A stretch of 17,223 bases of DNA from Planctomycetota bacterium (lineage in GTDB: Bacteria; Planctomycetota; Brocadiia; SM23-32): NCBI GenBank assembly GCA_018400625.1, contig JAGYMJ010000500.1:1-17223 (forward strand). The letters run 5' to 3'. The position numbers and the translations under genes are program-made. How positions within the stretch are numbered: position 1 is the first letter of the stretch; the number at the start of each line of letters is the position of its first letter. Positions 2,157-15,201 of the stretch are shown here, piece by piece. The notes under the pieces were generated by a model. The model was not told the DNA's origin, searched no databases, and was given only the letters and a program-made list of their open reading frames with translations.

Positions 2157-3188
2157 TCAAAAGAAAAAGCCAAAGCTCAGCATATGCATAGTGTAATCAT
2201 CTGTAGCATCACCCATAAAAGCGGCATAATCAACTTTCCATCCCATATTGCTTTTGAAACCAATGCCGCCGGTCAAAGCATTAAAATCACTATTATCCCA
2301 ATGGAAGCCCCCGGCTCTGAGAACCAGGCCTTCGCCGGGCTCAGCAGCCCAAAGTCCCGTAGTCCATTCCACACCGAATCTGATATCTTCATTCACAGCG
2401 CCATCAGAATTATCCAACAAATCCACAGCATCAACGGCTATAGAAATCCGGTCATTACCGGCGAAAAGGCCGTGAGGACTTTGCCAGGCCAGCCCGCCGC
2501 GAAGGTCGAAAATATGTTCAATGCTGAATGGTTCATCGAAAGGGGACCCCCCTGTTCTATATCTTGGCAATAAGTCAAAAGAGGGTTCTTTCAAGTTAAG
2601 GGCCGCAGCTCCCATCGTGAAACCAGCGCCTAAATCCAGAATAACACCAGCATCGAGACCGTAATCGGTCGCCTCGTCGGAAGCATTCTTTAAGCGTGTA
2701 TATTCTGCTTTGATGGACTTCAGATTTACTCCTATGGATACTGATTCACCGGGCAGCACTGTAAGGGGCATTGTATAGCCCATCCCGATAATTATTTGCC
2801 GCTCCTTATCCCGTCCGGTTTCGTCTTCAACAACCAATTTACTGCGGCCCTGTACCAGAGCGCCACCAATCCCCATAGATCCTCCTTTGACCTCGAATGC
2901 ATGAACTGCTCCGAAATAGTCGGTAAATCTGGGCACAGCTTCTCTTCGTCGATTGAGACCGGCGCTATAAATTATCTCTCCTCCGGACCCGTTGGCAAGC
3001 CCTGCCGGATTGTAGAGATTACTATAAGTATCATCGGCAAAAGCGACATATGCCCCACCCATCCCCATCGGTCTGGTTCCCACCATCCCTATCAAATGAG
3101 CGCCCGAATCAGCTAATGTTATACGGGAAAAAGAGAAAAAACATAATACCAGCAAAATAAAGAAATCGACCTTCTTTGTGATGATCAT
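2157..3188 (-). CDS. PorV/PorQ-type outer-membrane beta-barrel protein
   Basis: This 343-residue protein has a Sec signal peptide (MIITKK, then a hydrophobic stretch to about residue 24; cleavage likely near TLA-DSG). The mature part opens with the block GTRPMGMGGAYVAFADDTYS and then NLYNPAGLA (about 37-65), the hallmark N-terminus of PorV/PorQ/UPF0164 proteins, which are related to FadL barrels. Alternating glycine- and aromatic-rich strands follow, and the chain ends in FGFFF, a typical beta-barrel C-terminal signal. It should sit in the outer membrane. PorV and PorQ proper serve type IX secretion, but members in many phyla have no known role and no type IX genes are visible here, so function is open. 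An AAGGAGG ribosome site (3199-3205) precedes ATG 3188 by 10 bases and overlaps the stop codon of an upstream mini-ORF. Confidence 0.75.
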   Translation of the reverse strand: MIITKKVDFFILLVLCFFSFSRITLADSGAHLIGMVGTRPMGMGGAYVAFADDTYSNLYNPAGLANGSGGEIIYSAGLNRRREAVPRFTDYFGAVHAFEVKGGSMGIGGALVQGRSKLVVEDETGRDKERQIIIGMGYTMPLTVLPGESVSIGVNLKSIKAEYTRLKNASDEATDYGLDAGVILDLGAGFTMGAAALNLKEPSFDLLPRYRTGGSPFDEPFSIEHIFDLRGGLAWQSPHGLFAGNDRISIAVDAVDLLDNSDGAVNEDIRFGVEWTTGLWAAEPGEGLVLRAGGFHWDNSDFNALTGGIGFKSNMGWKVDYAAFMGDATDDYTMHMLSFGFFF

Positions 3189-3203
3189 AATTTAGTTTCC
3201 TCC

Positions 3204-3248
3204 TTAGAGATGGGCTAAGTATTCCATGAAAACAAAGGAAGCCGTCAT
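3204..3248 (-). CDS. Possible 14-codon leader peptide upstream of the PorV/PorQ-like gene
   Basis: A mini-ORF encoding MTASFVFMEYLAHL begins at ATG 3246-3248. It has its own strong AAGGAGG ribosome site (3253-3259, spacing 4), and its TAA (3204-3206) overlaps the ribosome site of the PorV/PorQ-like gene. It lies wholly inside the predicted leader transcript. This arrangement fits translational coupling or attenuation. The peptide has no run of one amino acid that would name an effector. The same frame is open up to 3395, but that longer version would overlap the promoter and lacks a ribosome site. Whether it is translated is inferred only. Confidence 0.35.
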   Translation of the reverse strand: MTASFVFMEYLAHL

Positions 3249-3357
3249 GCTGCCTCCTTCAACAAATCGGCAAGCTGAATTCCCCTTTGTATTTCCCGAA
3301 AGTTTACGGGGAACAGGCGTACCGCAGGGGCACTTGATTCGACGAATAATTACAGTC

Positions 3358-3386
3358 ATTGTATATAAAACGGCAGCAAAAGGCAA
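3358..3386 (-). promoter_or_regulatory. Sigma70-like promoter of the PorV/PorQ-like gene
   Basis: On the minus strand a TTGCCT -35 (3381-3386) and a TACAAT -10 (3358-3363) are 17 bases apart. Transcription would start near 3350, giving a leader of about 160 nt. The leader can form two mutually exclusive stems: TTCCCC at 3280-3285 with GGGGAA at 3308-3313, or CCCG at 3295-3298 with CGGG at 3307-3310. I do not recognise a known riboswitch in it. Confidence 0.55.
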
Positions 3387-3467
3387 GCAAATCACGAGAT
3401 ATTTAACATTTTCTTCATTATAAAATCGAACAATCCAAGGTTTTCTCCACAGCCTTGAAAGTTAACT

Positions 3468-6260
3468 CTATGAAACCAACACGTTTTTCAAATATTTTCC
3501 TGTAATTGAGTTTTCACACGCTGCAATTTCTTCCGGTGTTCCACTCCCAACAATATACCCCCCTTTTTCACCTTCTTCGGGCCCTAAATCAATAATATAG
3601 TCCGCGCTCTTTATGACATCGAGATTATGCTCAACAACGACTACCGTATGGCCGTCATTGACGAGTTGCTGAAAACATTTTAAGAGTTTCTTAATGTCAT
3701 CACAATGCAAACCGATAGTCGGTTCATCAAAAATCATGAGTTTTTTCTTGTTCTGTTGGCTAATCATAAACTTTGCCAGCTTAAGCCTTTGAGCTTCCCC
3801 GCCCGATAGCGTGGTGGCCGGCTGGCCGATCTTTATATAGCTCAGCCCTGTATTGTAAAGCATTTTGAGCTTAGTGGAAACCGCTTTTTGATCGGCAAAA
3901 AAACGCATTCCCTCAGAAACACTCATCTGAAGTATGTCGTAAATTGAACGCCCTTTGTATTTTATTTTGAGTATATCACCATGAAAACGCCGTCCCCGGC
4001 ATTGATCACACAGCACGTACATGTCTGCCAGAAATTGCATATCAACCTTAATACTGCCGGCCCCTTCACATCTCTCGCATCGGCCGCCTGCGGTATTAAA
4101 AGAAAACGTACCCGGCGACAGATTCCTTAGCCTGGCCTCACGGGTCCTGGAAAAAAGTTTCCGAATCGCATCGTAAAATTTCATATACGTAGCAGGATTC
4201 GATCGCGGCGTCTTACCTATAGGACTCTGGTCAACCATTTCCACGTCATGGATGAGATCGAAACCTTCTATGGAACTATAGACTCCCACTTCTTCACCAT
4301 ACCCCCCTGGTTTTTTTCGCTTCATTGCCCCATAAAGAGTATCCTTTACTAATGTGCTTTTCCCGCTGCCGCTCACCCCGGTAACGCATATCAACAGTCC
4401 TATCGGGATTTCAACATCAATGTTCTTGAGATTATGGTGGGAACATCCGGTAAGAGCTATTTTCTCATCTCCAGCTTTACGGCGCTCTTGGGTAACTTCT
4501 ATTGCACTCTCTCCAGCCAAATAAGCGCCGGTAATTGAAACTTCACAATGCGTAAGGCCTTTAACATCACCAGAGTAAACGACTTCGCCGCCGTATTCCC
4601 CTGCGCCCGGGCCAAGCTCCAGTATATGATCGGCATGTCGGATTATTTGCATATCATGTTCGACAACCACCACCGTATTGCCGAGTCGGCGGAGCCGCTT
4701 AATAATCTCAAGCAGTCTGTCATTATCACGCGGATGCAGTCCAATACTGGGTTCGTCGAGGATATAAAGCGTATTGACCAGAGCGGAGCCAAGGCTTGTA
4801 GCAAGGTTGACCCGCTGCATTTCCCCTCCGCTCAGTGTCCTTGCAGCGCGATCAAGGGTTATATAACCAAGCCCGATGAGGTTGAGGTAATGCAACCGTG
4901 TATTTATCTCGCTGAGTATGGTCGAAGCGACCTTTTCCTCAGAATCTCCCAATTTAAGCTTTTCATTAAAGAAAGCGCTCGCCTCAGAAATCGTCATTGC
5001 ATTGATTGCTGCGATGTTTTTGCCCCTTATTCTTACGGCCAGCGCCTCGCGTCGCAAGCGCGTGCCCTCGCATTCACGGCATCTCACGTATCTCCTGTAG
5101 CGGCTCAGCAAAACCCTGACATGCAGCTTATATTTCTTCGACTGCATCCATCGGAAAAAATCCATCACACCGTAAAAATGCTCAGTGCCTTCCATGACCA
5201 TACGCTTGTGTTCTTCACCCAACTTCTCCCAGGGAACATCGACCGGGATGCCGGCTTGGTCGGCGCCGCTAATAAGCTGATCCAAGCATTCTTTCGTGGT
5301 ATCAGTATTCCAGGGCTGAATAGCCCCCTCTGCAATGGAAAGCGACGGATCGGGTACTACACGCCTCCGGTCGATGTCAATCGTGGCCCCGTAGCCCGAA
5401 CAGTTTTCACATGCCCCCAAAGCGCTGTTGAATGCAAAAAGCTGCGGTCTGAGCTCAGGGGCCGCATAACCGCATTTTGCACAGCGGAGTTTCTGGTGGA
5501 ACTTGAACACTTCCCCATCCGGAATGCACAGCACACATCGCCCCTTCCCCAGCCTGTAACACGTTTCCACCGCCTCCGCAACACGTTCAGAGTTTTTTTG
5601 TCCTGCAACCAAACGATCCACAACAACCTCGATTTCAGCCCCCCCCTCTGGTACAGGCGGCGTTTGCGACCCAATGTCGAAAACCTTCCCTTCATAATAG
5701 ATTCGGATAAACCCCATCTCCCGAAGGCGAGAAATCTGCACATCTAATTCCAGTTCACCGGACAAAACCAGCGGGAAACCGATCGTGAACCTTGTCCTTT
5801 CGGGAAACTCTTTTGTTTTAGCAACGATATGGCTGACAGGATGGGCGACTATCGGGATATCGCATTCCGGACAGAAAACCTCGCCTATGCGGGCAAAAAG
5901 CAACCGCAGGTAATCGCTTACTTCCGTAGCAGTACCCACGGTCGAGCGTCGGTTCTTGACCGGATTTTTTCGTTCGATGGCTATAGCCGGCGGGATGTTT
6001 TCGATTTTATCAACATCCGGTTTGTCCATGCGCTCCAAAAACTGACGCGCATAAGGGCTGAAAGACTCCACATAGCGGCGCTGACCTTCGGCATAGAGTG
6101 TATCCAGAACCAGGCTGGACTTGCCGCTGCCGCTGAGTCCGGTCACAGCGACAAACTGACCTTTAGGTATGTCGATATTAATATTCTTGAGGTTATGGAC
6201 CCGCACTCCACGCAAATGGATATTATTGTCAACAGCCATGACGCTTTGTTGTCGATCCAT
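3468..6260 (-). CDS. uvrA: UvrA, excinuclease ABC subunit A
   Basis: UvrA is the DNA-damage sensor of nucleotide excision repair: a dimeric ABC ATPase that finds lesions and loads UvrB. The 930-residue length is normal. Seen in order: Walker A GLSGSGKSS (41-49), the UvrB-interaction region starting RRYVESFSPYARQFL, a zinc module (C260, C263, C284, C287), ABC signature LSGGE (476-480) and Walker B with DEPSIGLHP (502-510). The second half has Walker A GVSGSGKST (628-636), the second zinc module (C728, C731, C751, C754), LSGGE (818-822) and DEPTIGLH (845-852). All essential residues look intact. ATG 6260 has no clear ribosome site; an in-frame ATG seven codons later (MAVDNN) is equally possible. 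The gene follows topA by 55 bp on the same strand and is probably co-transcribed with it. A match on the opposite strand is only an antisense shadow. Confidence 0.97.
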   Translation of the reverse strand: MDRQQSVMAVDNNIHLRGVRVHNLKNINIDIPKGQFVAVTGLSGSGKSSLVLDTLYAEGQRRYVESFSPYARQFLERMDKPDVDKIENIPPAIAIERKNPVKNRRSTVGTATEVSDYLRLLFARIGEVFCPECDIPIVAHPVSHIVAKTKEFPERTRFTIGFPLVLSGELELDVQISRLREMGFIRIYYEGKVFDIGSQTPPVPEGGAEIEVVVDRLVAGQKNSERVAEAVETCYRLGKGRCVLCIPDGEVFKFHQKLRCAKCGYAAPELRPQLFAFNSALGACENCSGYGATIDIDRRRVVPDPSLSIAEGAIQPWNTDTTKECLDQLISGADQAGIPVDVPWEKLGEEHKRMVMEGTEHFYGVMDFFRWMQSKKYKLHVRVLLSRYRRYVRCRECEGTRLRREALAVRIRGKNIAAINAMTISEASAFFNEKLKLGDSEEKVASTILSEINTRLHYLNLIGLGYITLDRAARTLSGGEMQRVNLATSLGSALVNTLYILDEPSIGLHPRDNDRLLEIIKRLRRLGNTVVVVEHDMQIIRHADHILELGPGAGEYGGEVVYSGDVKGLTHCEVSITGAYLAGESAIEVTQERRKAGDEKIALTGCSHHNLKNIDVEIPIGLLICVTGVSGSGKSTLVKDTLYGAMKRKKPGGYGEEVGVYSSIEGFDLIHDVEMVDQSPIGKTPRSNPATYMKFYDAIRKLFSRTREARLRNLSPGTFSFNTAGGRCERCEGAGSIKVDMQFLADMYVLCDQCRGRRFHGDILKIKYKGRSIYDILQMSVSEGMRFFADQKAVSTKLKMLYNTGLSYIKIGQPATTLSGGEAQRLKLAKFMISQQNKKKLMIFDEPTIGLHCDDIKKLLKCFQQLVNDGHTVVVVEHNLDVIKSADYIIDLGPEEGEKGGYIVGSGTPEEIAACENSITGKYLKNVLVS

Positions 6261-10025: not shown

Positions 10026-11915
10026 TCAGCGAAAAAAGAAAAGTCGAACAGGGCGCCAAATACCGCCCGCCATTCTTGTATTCTTTGCCCTTACCGCTAC
10101 ATGATTTTCAGCTTCCGGGTCCAGCTCCTCCGTGATATCGAAATAAAAAGGCACATCCCAGCCGTCGGTGCATTCGCCGACAAATATCCCGTTGACCCAA
10201 ACCTGCGCCTGCTCATCAACGGCCCCAAAAAACAGATAAACACGGTTCCATTCCGGCAGATCGCTGATCTCGAAAAAACGACGGTACCAGGCCGGCCCAT
10301 GATAATCATTTTCAAGATGGTGCTGCCAGGACGATTCGATCGGCACATCTTCTCGCCAGTCACTGTCGTCGAACTGCGGTTCATACCACTGCTGATCAAT
10401 TCCCTGCCGATCAGGGTCCGTCTGAAACCGCCAGCCGGTCTGCGGCATGCGCATCTCTGAGACAATATCCCTGTTTAACCTGTAGCGCAGTTCATTGACG
10501 GGATCCCAGAATTCTTCAATTATACCGAGCGTCTTTCCCACCCAATCACGGCCTCCTTCGGGGCCTATATTCCCCTGATTCCTGTAAGCGCCGTGTGAGC
10601 CGTAAGCGCCCCCTTTGGCCGCCCGTTCGGGCGCGAGATAGGAGCCGGACCCGGCAAGCTGGACGATAAAGGTCTGAACGGCTTTGCTGCGTTCCTGAAT
10701 TCGCACACCAAAGTCCAGATAGAGTTCGAAAGGATTGGTCGCAAAGGCCATATCGCCGAGCCGCAGCACATAGACCTCAATCGGCAGGCCGCCACCGTCC
10801 TCCCTCTCTTCACGGGTGGTCATTTCGACTTTCTGCTTTGCATGCGCAAACAGCGGGTTCCACTCGATATTTTCCTCCATATACGGAAGTATGTCCAGAA
10901 CGCCATGAGTGATCCGACGCGCTATGCGTTCACGTCGCCCCTCGCCCGTCAACCTTTCCATGCGTCTCTCGGCCCTTCGGTGGATCATCACCCGCTCCGA
11001 CTGATCGCCGGCCGCGGAGCACTGGGGCAGGACATGCAGCTCGTCTCCCAGGTGCCGGCGCAGTTCAACCCGCGTCTCGTGCCAGAAGTCGGCGCTGAGC
11101 CTCAAGCTGTTCTCATCATGTTGTGAAGGCGACGCCAGGTTGATGAGCACGCCTGTCAGTTCACCGTTCTTGCTCCATGTGTAAAGCAGGTTGACCGAAT
11201 GATCTTCCCATCCCTCCACATGGCTGAAATTCGGGCGATCGGGCGATCCGTACATCCGGCTTCTGCCGTCGTCGTATGTCATTATGCGATTGTGACCTAC
11301 GACAGCATGACTCAATCCGAAGCTGACACCGCCCGGTTGGCGTGCCCGCCAGGCTTCCACGGCCGCTCCGGCGATGCGTTCGGTCGCAAAATCGATGTAT
11401 TCCCGTGGCTGCATGACGGTGTCGAGCTTATCGGCCCATTGTTCTTTTTGTCCCTCACGGAGCCGTTCTTCCAAACCGGTTCTGTCGCGCACCTCCGGTC
11501 CGGCATGGGTATGGGTAGCGAAGAGGACGACCTTGGGGGTCTTTTCTTCAGGCAGCGCCTCCGCAACCAGTTCCCGCACCCGTCCTCTGAAATCACCGCC
11601 CCTGATTTCGTCGGGGATACTGATAAGATCGCAGCTTACCATGATCACTCCATTGCCAAAACGCGACTCAAGCGCCAGCGCCGTCGCTGTGATGGGGTCC
11701 ATCACGCCCTCCGAAATACGGGCATAGCGCTGCCCCGTGATGAAGACCGGTGCATCCGGGGTTAAGTCCACGGACGCCCATCCTATCTGCAGCGTTTCAT
11801 TATCTTCTGGTGGAGCACCGGGAGCGACTGCCGTCAATGAGATGATTACAAATGCCGTCAGAAAAACGGTAATAAACACTTTTGAACGTCGGATAGAGAA
11901 TGCATTGTTCATCAT
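10026..11915 (-). CDS. Exported neutral/alkaline ceramidase-like hydrolase with C-terminal jelly-roll domain
   Basis: This 629-residue protein starts with a Sec signal peptide (basic FSIRRSK, then a hydrophobic core; cleavage near residue 33-36). The N-terminal two thirds resemble the neutral ceramidase N-terminal domain. They begin with IGWASVDLTPD, and ATHTHAGPE (133-141) matches the zinc-binding NHTHSGPG-type motif of that family. The last 130 or so residues look like the galactose-binding jelly-roll domain seen in GH2-type proteins (WYRRFFEI, VWVNGIFVGE, AGGIWRPVRLFF). The usual Ig-like ceramidase C-terminal domain is absent. Bacterial members of this type have no proven ceramide substrate; an amide or ester bond in a glycoconjugate is as likely. 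AGGAGG (11920-11925) precedes two adjacent ATGs; the second (11912) has better spacing. By eye the gene is richer in G+C than its neighbours, which may indicate transfer or strong expression. Confidence 0.75.
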   Translation of the reverse strand: MMNNAFSIRRSKVFITVFLTAFVIISLTAVAPGAPPEDNETLQIGWASVDLTPDAPVFITGQRYARISEGVMDPITATALALESRFGNGVIMVSCDLISIPDEIRGGDFRGRVRELVAEALPEEKTPKVVLFATHTHAGPEVRDRTGLEERLREGQKEQWADKLDTVMQPREYIDFATERIAGAAVEAWRARQPGGVSFGLSHAVVGHNRIMTYDDGRSRMYGSPDRPNFSHVEGWEDHSVNLLYTWSKNGELTGVLINLASPSQHDENSLRLSADFWHETRVELRRHLGDELHVLPQCSAAGDQSERVMIHRRAERRMERLTGEGRRERIARRITHGVLDILPYMEENIEWNPLFAHAKQKVEMTTREEREDGGGLPIEVYVLRLGDMAFATNPFELYLDFGVRIQERSKAVQTFIVQLAGSGSYLAPERAAKGGAYGSHGAYRNQGNIGPEGGRDWVGKTLGIIEEFWDPVNELRYRLNRDIVSEMRMPQTGWRFQTDPDRQGIDQQWYEPQFDDSDWREDVPIESSWQHHLENDYHGPAWYRRFFEISDLPEWNRVYLFFGAVDEQAQVWVNGIFVGECTDGWDVPFYFDITEELDPEAENHVAVRAKNTRMAGGIWRPVRLFFFR

Positions 11916-11943
11916 ATTGCCTCCTTTTTATAGAAATATGTTG

Positions 11944-11965
11944 CCTATCGCAGAAGAGTTGTATA
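11944..11965 (-). repeat. Motif upstream of the ceramidase-like gene, shared with 13722-13742
   Basis: Plus-strand CCTATCGCAGAAGAGTTGTATA here resembles CCTATCAGAAGAGTTAATATA at 13722-13742, in the same orientation. Both lie 30-40 bases before a minus-strand start codon. They may be a shared regulatory site, or direct repeats flanking a mobile segment that carries the 550-residue gene. The sequence alone does not decide. Confidence 0.4.
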
Positions 11966-11986
11966 AGACATTAGGCGCTTAGTTGC

Positions 11987-12016
11987 CGTACATCGTTAAC
12001 AAAATGAGGATGTACG
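11987..12016. repeat. Hairpin downstream of the 550-residue gene
   Basis: An 8-bp perfect stem (CGTACATC at 11987-11994, GATGTACG at 12009-12016, 14-nt loop) sits just beyond the gene's TGA (12031-12033). T runs (12019-12031) follow on the plus strand. It could act as a weak terminator for plus-strand transcripts or mark the left end of a mobile element. For minus-strand transcripts the T-tract is on the wrong side. Confidence 0.45.
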
Positions 12017-12030
12017 AATTTTTTGTTTTT

Positions 12031-13683
12031 TCAGGCTGCTAAGCCTATTGTATTGAATAATTCTTTCATTTCTAGTTGAATATTATGATAATGATGGTTA
12101 ACAGGGTGTTGATTCTGGGGTTTTTGCCTTCGAGTTGGCTTTTCTGTTGCGGCCAGGATAGGTTTTATTACCTGCTCCCGCAATGTCAAAATAGCAACCA
12201 TTGCCCGAAGCCCCTTCTGAGTGGGCTTGTACCTTCTGGAATTTTTGATTTTACGAACAAGGTTTTTGCCGCGAAACTTTCTCAAATCATACGAGGCTTT
12301 CCCCGCGGTGTAATCCAGACATTGCTCAGATTCATATTTGTTTACTGCATGAGCAAGTTCAGATGCAGTAAATCCACGTGGATTAGGAGCAAGGTTAACT
12401 ATCGCCCCCATAACCGTTCTGATGCGCTCTTTGTTGAGATTGACACCGGCAACTCTACTTTTACCAACAGAGCTTGGGGTGGAAAGCTGATCAAAACTCC
12501 CATCGTCAATCCAGGAAACATCAATACAATTAACCGCTTCCATAACATTATCAAGGATATTTTTCAGTTTGTTGATGAGCTCGGGAAAATATCCAACCGA
12601 ACGTCTGCAATTCAAAGCTCTGGCATTGTGAAGAACAGCCTCTGCTCGGAGAACGTGCTCGCCTTTGGTATAGAACTTGACGGTGAAGGCGCCAAAATGA
12701 AGCTTAAAGACCGTCATGTCATACACAGGTCTCTCGATCACCATCTCCAAGCGCGGTCTGCTCTTTCTGCTTCTTTTATGAGCGGGACGCTTCTTGTAGC
12801 CGAAGATTGTTTTCACCCTATTGATGTCCATGAAGGGCCAACTGTGAGCTACCAGGCCTTTGAAAACCTGATCCAACACTTTGCCTCTGGTAAAGAGAAG
12901 ATTGCGGCTGTATTCGGCTTGGTAAACAGAATATTGATACCGAAAACCGCTCCTCTCCTGTTCCTCAAGAGTAAGGGCGAAACACAAACAGGTCGAATAT
13001 ATCCAACGCTCACACACCCCGGCCAAGCGCCCTATGGCCCTTTCGGACGAGGTCTCTGCGACAAGTCCGAGGTGGCGAGCGTTGTCAATATCGGTAAAAC
13101 AGTTCCCTTCTTTGGTAAAAACGACGCCTTCTTCTATTGCTTTGCGCTCTACATATTCATGTCCATTGAGTATAATCTGCGCATTAAACGGTGGATGTCC
13201 ACACAGCTTGATCGTAATGTGACCCCACTCGGGGTCGATGATGTGAAACGAGTAATGCTTGACGTATGGCATAGGTTTTTTCTTAGCGATATTGGTAATT
13301 TTTCCGCTTTCTTTAGAGCGATCAATGTTATACACGGAATTAGGAGCACAAGAACCTATTATCAAAAACAATCCGGTAAATTCAGGGTCTTTGGGAATAT
13401 ATTGCTCGGCTATTTCATGTTTGCGTTGACCGGCTTTGCAGTGTATTATCGGTACGCGGTTTTTCTTAGCGTATGCACAAATACGTCGTCCCATATATTT
13501 TGCAAATCGCTTAATACTGGTGTTATTTAAATCATCATCCGTGCCTTTCAGTTGCCGCCACCATTTGCGAAAGCCGCCCACTGAACAGGCCAAAGTAGAG
13601 TAAGCGTTCAGTACGATACGATCTACACAATCGTAAGTTGCGTCAAGATAGTCAGAATAGTAATTTGTAAATGAATCAGACAT
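12031..13683 (-). CDS. Uncharacterised 550-residue protein with C-terminal winged helix, probably mobile-element borne
   Basis: I recognise no named enzyme. Distinctive blocks: GGFRKWWRQL (36-45); GQRKHEIAEQYI (85-96); YSFHIIDPEWGHITIKLCGH (144-163), followed by PPFNAQIILNGHEYVER; RYQYSVYQAEYSRNLLF (248-264); VFKLHFGAFTVKFYTKGEHV (325-344); and a winged-helix-like region SYDLRKFRGKNLVRKI..SRRYKPTQKG (464-491). From memory, unverified, the same block order occurs in a very abundant, multi-copy uncharacterised bacterial family (IKLC..P..., LNGHEY..RQ, IFGR, a beta-hairpin before VLR.E, then a C-terminal winged helix). No DDE, serine or tyrosine recombinase, RuvC or HNH signature is clear; Asp150 (IIDPEWG) and the GH..N..NGH stretch (162-175) are candidate functional residues. 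Translation is well supported: AGGAGGT lies 6 bases before ATG 13683. It lies between a hairpin on one side and hairpin-rich DNA plus a truncated gene on the other, which suggests mobility. A nucleic-acid-binding role is inferred from the winged helix and the Lys/Arg-rich segments. Confidence 0.85.
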   Translation of the reverse strand: MSDSFTNYYSDYLDATYDCVDRIVLNAYSTLACSVGGFRKWWRQLKGTDDDLNNTSIKRFAKYMGRRICAYAKKNRVPIIHCKAGQRKHEIAEQYIPKDPEFTGLFLIIGSCAPNSVYNIDRSKESGKITNIAKKKPMPYVKHYSFHIIDPEWGHITIKLCGHPPFNAQIILNGHEYVERKAIEEGVVFTKEGNCFTDIDNARHLGLVAETSSERAIGRLAGVCERWIYSTCLCFALTLEEQERSGFRYQYSVYQAEYSRNLLFTRGKVLDQVFKGLVAHSWPFMDINRVKTIFGYKKRPAHKRSRKSRPRLEMVIERPVYDMTVFKLHFGAFTVKFYTKGEHVLRAEAVLHNARALNCRRSVGYFPELINKLKNILDNVMEAVNCIDVSWIDDGSFDQLSTPSSVGKSRVAGVNLNKERIRTVMGAIVNLAPNPRGFTASELAHAVNKYESEQCLDYTAGKASYDLRKFRGKNLVRKIKNSRRYKPTQKGLRAMVAILTLREQVIKPILAATEKPTRRQKPQNQHPVNHHYHNIQLEMKELFNTIGLAA

Positions 13684-13721
13684 TATGATACCTCCTGGAT
13701 ATAGATGCTTTTGTATGAAGC

Positions 13722-13742
13722 CCTATCAGAAGAGTTAATATA
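13722..13742 (-). repeat. Second copy of the shared motif, upstream of the 550-residue gene
   Basis: This partner of 11944-11965 shares the 10-mer CAGAAGAGTT plus flanking CCTATC and TATA, with a 2-base indel. It lies about 39 bases upstream of ATG 13683. Confidence 0.4.
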
Positions 13743-13811
13743 GCAAAAAAGCGTTTGAAATAAAAGAAAATCTTAGGTACCATAAAAATTCTATAAGGTT
13801 TGAAAAAGATT

Positions 13812-13845
13812 ATAAGAAAAGACTTTTTCAAAAGTTTTTTCTTAT
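13812..13845. repeat. AT-rich 16-bp hairpin (H1)
   Basis: ATAAGAAAAGACTTTT and AAAAGTTTTTTCTTAT flank a 2-base centre. Read as plus-strand RNA the stem is complete with one G-U pair; read as minus-strand RNA that position is an A-C mismatch. A TATAAT-like -10 for the 550-residue gene (13809-13814, minus strand) overlaps its left edge, but no good -35 is seen. Confidence 0.55.
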
Positions 13846-13886
13846 GTCTGTACGTCTTTTAGTCGTTTTGTCTGCAATCGGTAAAA

Positions 13887-13959
13887 GCATTTTTTGTCCC
13901 TTTTTCGGTCCTCTCGTAGCCGCCGCACGTGGAGGGCCGAAAAAGGAAACGAAAAATGC
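13887..13959. repeat. Long imperfect hairpin (H2)
   Basis: Arms 13887-13914 and 13931-13959 pair over about 24 positions, with one small internal loop; an inner CGT/ACG stem closes a 9-nt loop. The outer 8 pairs (GCATTTTT/AAAAATGC) and the CGGTCCTC/GAGGGCCG part are the strongest. G-U pairs favour the plus-strand RNA at two or three positions and the minus strand at one, so the strand is not settled. No T-run follows on either strand, so it is not a simple terminator. Confidence 0.65.
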
Positions 13960-14039
13960 GAACGCCAGATTCACCTGAAGACGTTAAAAAGTACTGCGCC
14001 GACAGGCGCCCCATTTTCAGAGCGCAGTCTCTGAAAATG
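13887..14039. ncRNA. Candidate structured RNA or element end (hairpins H2 to H4 with possible pseudoknot)
   Basis: In about 150 bp follow hairpin H2 (13887-13959); a small stem AACG (13961-13964)/CGTT (13982-13985) enclosing CAG/CTG; a 5-bp GC stem GCGCC (13996-14000)/GGCGC (14005-14009) with GACA loop; and an 11-bp perfect stem (14012-14022 with 14029-14039). The 6-nt loop of the last, CGCAGT (14023-14028), is the exact complement of ACTGCG (13993-13998), so a pseudoknot, alternative to the GC stem, can form. No ORF with coding character is visible. The density of pairings is the evidence; transcription and strand are unknown. On the minus strand it would be a leader of the 550-residue gene; on the plus strand it would read straight into the truncated polyferredoxin gene. 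No RNA family is recognised. Confidence 0.4.
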
Positions 14040-14115
14040 CGTAGATCCTTACAGCATTTTTGGAAGGATTTTCTCCGGTCTCTTACGCCCCGTCGTTCTC
14101 GCGGCAAACAATTTA
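14035..14115 (+). pseudogene. Start-less upstream part of the polyferredoxin frame
   Basis: The ferredoxin frame is open from 14035 after a TGA at 14032-14034. This part reads KCVDPYSIFGRIFSGLLRPV and onward, which is typical internal sequence of long membrane polyferredoxins (a DPYSxFGR block before the second membrane segment). It has no start codon, ribosome site or upstream membrane helices. The family match stops at the edge of the 11-bp hairpin, so the normal N-terminal half is missing here. Confidence 0.7.
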
Positions 14116-15201
14116 GTGGCATCCCTGTTACAGAGCATAGACATATACAGTTTCAGTCATTTAAGCTTTTACCCGCTGGGCTTGTCCATTTACCTGATCT
14201 CGATCCTCTTCCTCACCCTGATCGTTCTCCTCACGATTTCTCATGGAAGGCTTTACTGCAACACAATCTGCCCGGTAGGCACTTTGCTCGGTTATTTTTC
14301 GCGGCTATCAATTTTTAAAATGCGAATTAACCCGCATGACTGCAGAAAATGCGGGGCATGCGAAGAGGCATGTAAAGCGGAATGTCTGGACCTTGAAAAC
14401 CTGACGATTGACCATTCGCGATGCATATTATGTTTCAACTGCGTCACCTCTTGTCAGTTTAAAGCCATAGATTATTCTCCCGGGAAAAAACTTTCGAGAA
14501 AGGTGGAGGGTGTGAAACCGGACTCCTCCAGCCGCAGAAAAGCCTTAAGTTCAATGCTCGGCGGAATATTGCTGGCCCGGGCGGGGACGGATGAGGTGGG
14601 CCGGGAAACCAGGTCGGAATCGGGTTTTAGAATAAGAAGAAGGCATTACGTTACTCCGCCGGGTTCGGGGGAAATCAAAGAGTTTGCATCAAAATGCACG
14701 GGATGTCATTTGTGTGTCAACGCCTGTCCCACCGGTGTTATACAGCCGGCGCAGAACGAATTAGGCTGGCAAAACTTTATGCGCGTCCGATTGGATTTCA
14801 ATGCCGGCTACTGCAACTATGAATGTACGCGCTGCATGGAAATATGTCCCACGGGAGCTCTACTTCCCGTGCCAACAGCAGACAAAAAACGGACTCAGAT
14901 AGGTAAAGCAAAATTCGTGAAAGAGAATTGTATAATTATTGCAGAAGGGACAGACTGCGGCGCATGTGCAGAGCATTGTCCTACCGGGGCCGTAAGGATG
15001 GTACCCCATAAAAATGACATACGAATTCCGGAAGTTGAAGAGGACATATGCATTGGCTGCGGCGCCTGTGAACATGCCTGCCCCTCCCAGCCGTATAAAG
15101 CGATTTATGTGGAGGGCAATAAAGTTCACGTTATTGCCGAAGAACCCCGAAAAGGGGAAAAAGCGCAGGAAACGGAATTTGAGGGAGATTTCCCGTTCTA
15201 A
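14116..15201 (+). CDS. 5'-truncated membrane polyferredoxin (NapH/NapG-like 4Fe-4S protein)
   Basis: The first usable start is GTG 14116, with no clear ribosome site, and the frame is coding-like well upstream of it. From that start: one membrane segment (about 20-42), the loop motif YCNTICPVG (47-55), then 4Fe-4S motifs at C76/C79/C82/C86, C103/C106/C109/C113, C194/C197/C200/C204, C233/C237/C240/C244, C281/C284/C288 and C312/C315/C318/C322. A twin-arginine-like SRRKAL (139-144) plus hydrophobic stretch sits between the NapH-like and NapG-like parts, as in full-length relatives. Such proteins carry electrons between the quinone pool or a membrane complex and an unknown redox partner. Relatives I recall are about 500 residues, with an extra N-terminal membrane part containing a first CxxxCP loop; that part is absent. 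The C-terminal coding sequence is intact, so the loss may be recent or a shorter product may still be made. It is the only large gene on the plus strand. Confidence 0.8.
   Translation: MASLLQSIDIYSFSHLSFYPLGLSIYLISILFLTLIVLLTISHGRLYCNTICPVGTLLGYFSRLSIFKMRINPHDCRKCGACEEACKAECLDLENLTIDHSRCILCFNCVTSCQFKAIDYSPGKKLSRKVEGVKPDSSSRRKALSSMLGGILLARAGTDEVGRETRSESGFRIRRRHYVTPPGSGEIKEFASKCTGCHLCVNACPTGVIQPAQNELGWQNFMRVRLDFNAGYCNYECTRCMEICPTGALLPVPTADKKRTQIGKAKFVKENCIIIAEGTDCGACAEHCPTGAVRMVPHKNDIRIPEVEEDICIGCGACEHACPSQPYKAIYVEGNKVHVIAEEPRKGEKAQETEFEGDFPF

Follow-up and report, generated by a model that had tools for sequence, protein, structure and literature searches.

Insertion sequences of the IS200/IS605 group carry TnpA, an HUH Y1 transposase, have subterminal hairpins and no inverted repeats, and insert 3' of a short target; IS91/ISCR elements and Helitrons, whose enzymes are of the HUH Y2 kind, have a terminal hairpin. 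In the excerpts of the literature on which we draw (PMC4797284, PMC13107129, PMC5714925, PMC8147514 and PMC10132070), a review describes the latter elements as lacking inverted repeats and target duplication and as using a rolling-circle type enzyme, an insertion sequence detection paper sorts transposases into five kinds (DDE, DEDD, HUH, Y and S), and the roles given for Rep_trans proteins are confined to plasmids, phages and conjugation. Here we describe an element from a Planctomycetota bacterium, located in a 17,223-bp stretch of contig JAGYMJ010000500.1 (assembly GCA_018400625.1; the whole stretch is called the window), that encodes a single 550-residue protein. Judged by sequence comparison, it is almost certainly a mobile insertion sequence. 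The best-supported mechanism, which we regard as probable, is single-strand transposition by a tyrosine nuclease that is Rep_trans-like and not of the HUH type.

The element and the interrupted polyferredoxin gene

The element extends over 2,070 bp on the minus strand (11972..14041, CGCATTTTC...TAAGCGCCTA), its ends having been aligned by eye with those of loci L031, L032, L034, L037, L045 and L068. Read along the coding strand, it comprises a covarying 5' hairpin, the gene for the 550-residue putative transposase (12031..13683, minus strand), a 3' hairpin and the 3' end TAAGCGCCTA (11972..11981, minus strand). The identical 10-mer forms the 3' ends of L031, L034 and L146 and of L114 and L116 from the source genome, and is the proposed right cleavage site. 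At the other end, the start CTACGC or CTACCC together with its hairpin is common to the window, L032, L034, L037, L045 and L068 (aligned by eye), and L031 starts like the window element. When the CTA is included, the 5' start lies at 14044, with the 3' end at 11972. The initial annotation had proposed a mobile unit at 11940-14040, within about 30 bp of these ends.

The element abuts the C-terminal part of a polyferredoxin gene (14045..15201, plus strand), whose frame, described earlier as beginning where the last hairpin ends, is indeed open right up to the element's 5' end. The N-terminal half had been thought lost through a deletion or rearrangement; a deletion is not needed, for contig C664 carries this half behind a further 3' end of the element and itself starts with the element's last 48 bp. 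Joining the C664 flank (L083) to the window from 14045 yields a single 526-residue open frame. The join with a single CTA reads GLLDPYSIFGR and equals in length all four polyferredoxin homologues compared (three from Bacteroidales plasmid records and one from genome G011), and the version without CTA is one residue short. The match of the single-CTA version to the homologue lengths makes TAAGGATCTA-AAAGG the most probable pre-insertion site, and the preferred notation for the element is CGC...CTA, inserted after CTA.

No single physical copy can be followed, past its 3' end, by both the C664 flank and the left flank of the window, and therefore the window contig joins two copies. The gene and intergenic flank past the 3' end (10026..11971, minus strand) is the insertion site of another copy and not that of the polyferredoxin gene, so that the left junction of the window belongs to that other copy and C664 holds the 3' junction on the polyferredoxin side. 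The two-copy contig may have arisen because the assembly ran through the repeat, because copies recombined with each other or because strain variants were present. Contigs C664 and C665 both start with the element's last 48 bp and C175 finishes with its first 45 bp; in this assembly the element thus has three different junctions at its 3' end and two at its 5' end, a variety to which strain variants may contribute. About 250 bp before the end of C175 (L098), upstream of the element's 5' junction, stands a second 3'-end-like hairpin (CACATCGAAACAAAATTGTCGATGTG), perhaps a remnant of another copy.

Copies in the source genome and related families

The 550-residue protein is encoded once in its own assembly, which is 83% complete and consists of 698 contigs. 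Besides the window element, a DNA search of this genome returned 27 matches at E<=1, of which the lowest-ranking are weak: 19 span the 5' end (12 starting at most one base from it), four span the 3' end and four are internal. Among the 20 regions fetched, 18 contain the 5' end and two only the 3' end. Some copies are gene-less derivatives, units of 252 and 235 bp (L103, L106) that are too short for the gene and have both ends. Four copies lie directly behind the 3' end of another element with a single triplet between them (L105, L106 and L112 found by script, L100 by eye), as expected if the 3' end itself serves as a target. Short palindromic units of the type GACCCTGTGTCGGTGG were seen by eye downstream of several degraded 5' ends (L102, L108, L111 and L112); they are repeated in L108, a stricter pattern recovers only L112, and they are possibly another repeat family that co-occurs with the element.

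Relatives of the protein define multi-copy units in three other genomes. The complete genome G015, from the same class, gave 22 matches of a 24%-identical relative in a unit of about 1,703 bp (family A), with both ends readable in 21. Two families come from genome G063: family B, a 1,669-bp unit in seven identical copies, and family C, a unit of about 1,808 bp that occurs five times and encodes a closer relative (46% identity); three copies of family C are at least 99.5% identical, one is 98% and one 92% identical. Family D, from G576, has six copies of about 1,700 bp with at least 99.5% nucleotide identity. All four families have sharp ends, and each unit of the four families holds exactly one long gene, the relative of the 550-residue protein. 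In G063 as a whole there are 42 match segments, many with several in-frame stops, so that old decayed copies stand alongside young identical ones. On a Mycobacterium riyadhense plasmid (L068), two diverged members at 1236-2852 and 2995-4656 lie head to tail, the second directly after the first.

Alignment of near-identical copies and their flanks, together with a search for empty sites, had been suggested as checks on the proposed mobility. The first reveals precise shared ends in families A-D, and the readable empty sites are precise as well: that of the window element restores the reading frame, and a paralogous empty site of family A displays neither loss nor duplication. The terminal inverted repeats and target duplication of DDE-type elements are absent, no inverted repeats being visible by eye at the ends of families A-D and no duplication in the family A empty site. 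The comparisons show sharp ends, an absence of terminal inverted repeats, multi-copy spread and gene-less derivatives with the same ends; with ends that include the hairpins, the empty sites and the three 3' junctions of the source assembly, they bear out the earlier suggestion that a mobile unit interrupted the polyferredoxin gene.

Target sites

Directly 5' of the element lies TAAGGATCTA (14042..14051, minus strand), the proposed left cleavage site. TAAG precedes the CTA position by exactly three bases in 15 of the 26 left flanks counted. L108 and L110, with degraded 5' ends, were not entered in this test, and nine flanks from the source genome were set aside as tandem or 3'-end-like (L100, L102, L103, L105, L106, L109, L111, L112 and L113). 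TAAG stands at this distance in six of the eight remaining copies of this genome, or in five of seven without L115, which was counted as a match and may itself be a tandem or 3'-end remnant; the background TAAG frequency is 0.00295 (binomial p 1.8e-14, a post hoc value, since the motif was formed on the flanks on which it was tested). Most readable sites of the window subfamily thus show insertion 3' of TAAG-NNN-CTA. The element's own 3' end TAAGCGCCTA has the same pattern, and in these alignments it imitates the target.

Among ends read after the motif had been formed, three had a readable left flank: L031 (TAAGGGT-CTA), L143, with GAAG both at the target and at its 3' end, and L145, without the motif. 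L144 has no CTA at its 5' hairpin, and no 5' end was seen in L146 and L147. The 3' ends read at this stage were TAAGCGCCTA in L146, GAAGCGTCTA in L143 and TAAGTGCCTA in L053; none was recognised in L144, L145 and L147. Family A has a different target, C^AC-R-R-A, with the left C in 20 of 21 sites, the right C in 19 of 21 and the A at +5 in all 21. Four-nucleotide direct repeats around these sites were considered as target duplications and are read instead as this motif; the CTA shared by the junctions of the window element can likewise be written as a 3-bp repeat.

Hairpins and orientation to replication

The dense hairpins noted upstream of the gene in the initial annotation fold better than shuffled sequences in all three regions: the 5'-terminal double hairpin (folded at 13990-14044; z -5.99, none of 200 shuffles as good), leader positions 13850-13980 (z -3.43, none of 200) and 13800-13860 (z -2.47, 5 of 200). 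They correspond to 5'-terminal hairpin 1 (14012..14039; 11 bp with a 6-nt loop), hairpin 2 (13996..14009), which also folds in relatives, a long internal leader hairpin (13890..13955) and a second one (13812..13845), all on the minus strand. The hairpin reported beyond the stop codon (11987..12016, minus strand) exists and is clear by eye in L031, L033, L034, L036 and L045, though not in L032; it is weak in the window copy (z -1.76, 11 of 200). All families have a hairpin just inside the 5' end, and families B, C and D have one before the 3' end, with no obvious 3' hairpin in family A.

Hairpin 1 covaries. In 14 distinct sequences 93.5% of stem cells are paired, compared with 72.0% after shuffling (none of 500 as high), and there are 36 two-sided changes against 12.3 in shuffles, with no one-sided (G-U type) change at any of the 11 pairs. 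Since pairing varies freely without wobble intermediates, this pattern suggests selection on a hairpin of single-stranded DNA. The 361-bp leader sequence and its two internal hairpins are shared with L031 (a 72% relative). The leader of L145 is long and differs in sequence, and those of families A, B and D are short and lack the long internal hairpin. The extra hairpins are therefore probably regulatory and not a general guide of the kind of the IS110/IS1111 bridge RNA; seven Rfam matches in the leader hairpins all fall below the gathering score.

In G015, GC skew was sampled in twenty 20-kb stretches and puts the origin at about 2.1 Mb and the terminus at about 3.9-4.0 Mb. Under a two-arm reading, the coding strand runs with the fork, on the lagging-strand template, in 20 of the 22 copies of family A (Fisher p 2.1e-4; 1.1e-3 with one near-origin copy reassigned; 4.6e-4 with three clustered copies counted once). 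The target motif itself has no strand bias in this genome (four patterns, 0.45-0.54).

The CTA found at both junctions of window-type elements, the single triplet between tandem elements and the absence of inverted repeats would also fit a double-stranded circle that undergoes site-specific strand exchange at a 3-bp CTA core, as in IS110/IS1111, by an unrelated recombinase chemistry. We consider this improbable: the members scanned gave no match to DEDD/IS110, serine or tyrosine recombinases, family A inserts without a CTA shared with its target, and single-stranded DNA accounts better for its strand bias and for hairpin pairs that covary without one-sided changes.

The protein family

A search of 5.8 billion proteins returned 6,249 homologues of the 550-residue protein at E<=1e-3 among 7,998 scored candidates, and a second query with the distant family A protein gave 4,520 relatives among 7,997. 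Together with the near-identical copies in other genomes, these numbers agree with the previous description of a widespread multi-copy family. None of the best 120 homologues in either list has a precomputed Pfam domain, and many of them sit on contigs of about 1.7-2.3 kb. Within the phylum, a window-like protein occurs in 4 of 392 genomes at E<=1e-30, including the source genome, and 17 of 393 genomes, G015 among them, have a family A protein at E<=1e-20. Eight other genomes of the source family gave no match, which with the single copy in the source genome points to a patchy distribution. From 16 pattern stretches came 7 loci with relatives, their records labelled Desulfobacterales, Caldithrix, Phycisphaerales, Spirochaetes, Sulfurimonas, Anaerolineales and Mycobacterium; 16 records place relatives on plasmids, among them those of Rhodococcus and Paraburkholderia, and in viral contigs 2 of 119 pattern stretches encode one.

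The protein is uncharacterised, as was first stated, in that neither Pfam, scanned with the window protein and five relatives, nor NCBIfam, scanned with the window protein and four, gave a match above a cut-off. Group I/II intron, DDE, DEDD, serine and HUH enzymes, the HUH Y1 and Y2 transposases among them, were rejected as candidates on these scans. PHROGs gave no transposase match for four proteins, and the matches there and in other libraries were weak and mostly to helix-turn-helix domains in the C-terminal part. A profile search of solved structures produced two irrelevant matches (E 0.14 and 0.24).

Predicted catalytic domain and proposed mechanism

The predicted model has a TBP-like domain (residues ~1-390) and a winged helix, so that the earlier name of winged-helix protein holds only for residues ~393-510. 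Below E 0.001 the PDB gave just two matches, both to chains of a pT181-type rolling-circle Rep; a viral structure library gave six matches at E<=1e-3, the named ones including TBP/TFIID-like proteins, and an Inoviridae protein at 2.1e-3. Among 94 aligned members, E257 (codon 12913..12915), Y338 (12670..12672) and E348 (12640..12642) are invariant and D21 (13621..13623; all minus strand) is D in 93. These residues follow the Rep_trans motif order, with D21 at the motif N' position and E257 at that of motif I. Y338 stands in K336-x-Y338-x-K340 on the predicted strand 333-340, a Y-x-K of motif III type, and is followed on strand 344-351 by the motif IV R-x-E, L345-R346-x-E348 (R346 in 94/94, K340 in 93/94). 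D21, E257 and E348 lie on separate predicted strands, and the model has the TBP-like crescent catalytic fold of Rep_trans.

Rep_trans initiators (pT181 RepD/RepDE, RepSTK1 4cij; MOBT relaxases; PF02486) resemble the element protein in this predicted fold, in the K-x-Y-x-K strand tyrosine and R-x-E, in two further conserved acidic residues on separate strands, in a C-terminal helix-turn-helix and in hairpins at their DNA sites. The element protein differs in its lack of detectable sequence similarity and of motif II, in a longer D21-E257 stretch and in being borne by a transposon. Rep-Arvir of archaeal viruses and plasmids, placed beside it by description and not by sequence, is presented in the excerpt of PMC13107129 as a TBP-fold Rep with kinship to Rep_trans at the fold level only, a winged helix-turn-helix and an adjacent DNA hairpin, but belongs to archaeal replicons and not to insertion sequences. 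True Rep_trans (PF02486) matches, two of three over the cut-off, occur in a same-genus genome, at G001:C335 (L140) and two more places in it, so both kinds of enzyme occur in this lineage.

The C-terminal domain resembles winged-helix regulators and one plasmid record names a relative as an ArsR family regulator, as would be the case if the gene were a passenger for a DNA-binding or regulatory protein in units moved in trans by another transposase. This is very improbable, because the gene is the only long one in four separately defined multi-copy units in three genomes and 16 of the 20 invariant columns fall within the N-terminal TBP-like domain, arranged like a nuclease site.

While comparison of copies demonstrates mobility, the nuclease chemistry we infer from the conserved residues and the predicted model. 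The element would be an autonomous one-gene insertion sequence moving as single-stranded DNA, and its protein a tyrosine nuclease that depends on metal ions and has the TBP-like fold seen in the Rep_trans initiators of rolling-circle replication. Y338 would act as the nucleophile, D21, E257 and E348 would be metal ligands, and the C-terminal winged helix would bind the element ends. The top strand would be nicked at two places, behind the CTA of the left flank and behind the TAAGCGCCTA of the element itself, the 5' phosphate being retained on Y338. The ends would then be joined into a single-stranded circle, or the strand transferred by rolling-circle displacement, and reinsertion would take place on the 3' side of another TAAGNNNCTA, with a preference for the lagging-strand template.

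Copy-out rolling-circle transposition by the same protein, as in IS91 or Helitrons, is a variant of this mechanism whose likelihood overlaps with it; we regard it as possible, if doubtful. Rep_trans relatives drive rolling-circle replication in the literature excerpts cited above, copy numbers are high, and four copies in the source genome follow directly behind another 3' end. Yet aligned copies share both of their ends, in a comparison not aimed specifically at one-ended transposition, and the tandem junctions are equally explained by TAAGCGCCTA acting as a target.

Several results weigh against a single-strand, Rep_trans-like mechanism. The left flanks of L101, L107, L111, L112, L032, L068 and L145 and of all five family C copies have no exact TAAG (four of the latter have ATAA at that position). 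The orientation bias rests on one genome, in which 15 of 20 skew samples fit the two-arm reading; in G063, with weak skew, six of seven family B copies run against and four of five family C copies along the local skew, and the skew of G576 is too weak for a call. PF02486 is not among the matches at E<=10, hhalign against Rep_trans gave probabilities of 0.2 and 0.1, and a hidden Markov model of the Rep_trans motifs performed no better on 244 proteins than reversed or shuffled decoys. Motif II (T/S-x-Y/E-x-G) is unmatched, the equivalent strand having a conserved K327 and no such pattern. With the family A model, Foldseek gave no PDB match below E 1e-3 and Rep matches rank below TBPs by Z; moreover, the window and family A models are not independent, as their alignments share rows.

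With IS200/IS605 the element shares subterminal hairpins at its ends, the absence of inverted repeats and of target duplication, insertion 3' of a target that is short and is fixed on one side and, for family A in one genome, an orientation bias to replication that did not recur where skew was weak; it differs in a protein of about 550 residues without an HUH Y1 match and in a TAAGNNNCTA-like target copied by the right end. With IS91/ISCR and Helitrons it shares a terminal hairpin, the lack of inverted repeats and target duplication and a putative rolling-circle type enzyme, of different nuclease fold and motifs. The element works like IS200/IS605 or IS91, but it is not filed there because no HUH enzyme was detected, nor in PF02486 because the protein fails its profile. 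Elsewhere in the window, the product of 273-1763, read from a TTG start, looks DnaA-like by eye.

Implications

On balance, and with some reserve, we favour the view that these proteins form a new top-level class of transposases, tyrosine nucleases of Rep_trans/TBP-like fold that would join the DDE, DEDD, HUH, tyrosine and serine enzymes as a sixth catalytic type and would drive the single-strand transposition of an abundant, unannotated superfamily in several bacterial phyla, with a right end that imitates the target. No Rep_trans- or TBP-fold transposase is described in the titles and abstract openings returned by searches of open-access PMC papers. We judge the class to be new on the searchable databases and literature, with ISfinder, including ISNCY groups such as ISDol1, outside the comparison; one paper names ISDol1, and its excerpts describe no end features. 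If this view is correct, thousands of unnamed or "hypothetical" proteins would become transposases missed by current annotation, and the many ~1.7-2.3-kb contigs that bear the gene would, to judge from their lengths, be accounted for as well. A catalytic fold would be added to transposition, linking insertion sequences to the Reps of plasmids, phages and conjugation, and the element would represent a compact inserter of single-stranded DNA with a short, readable target.

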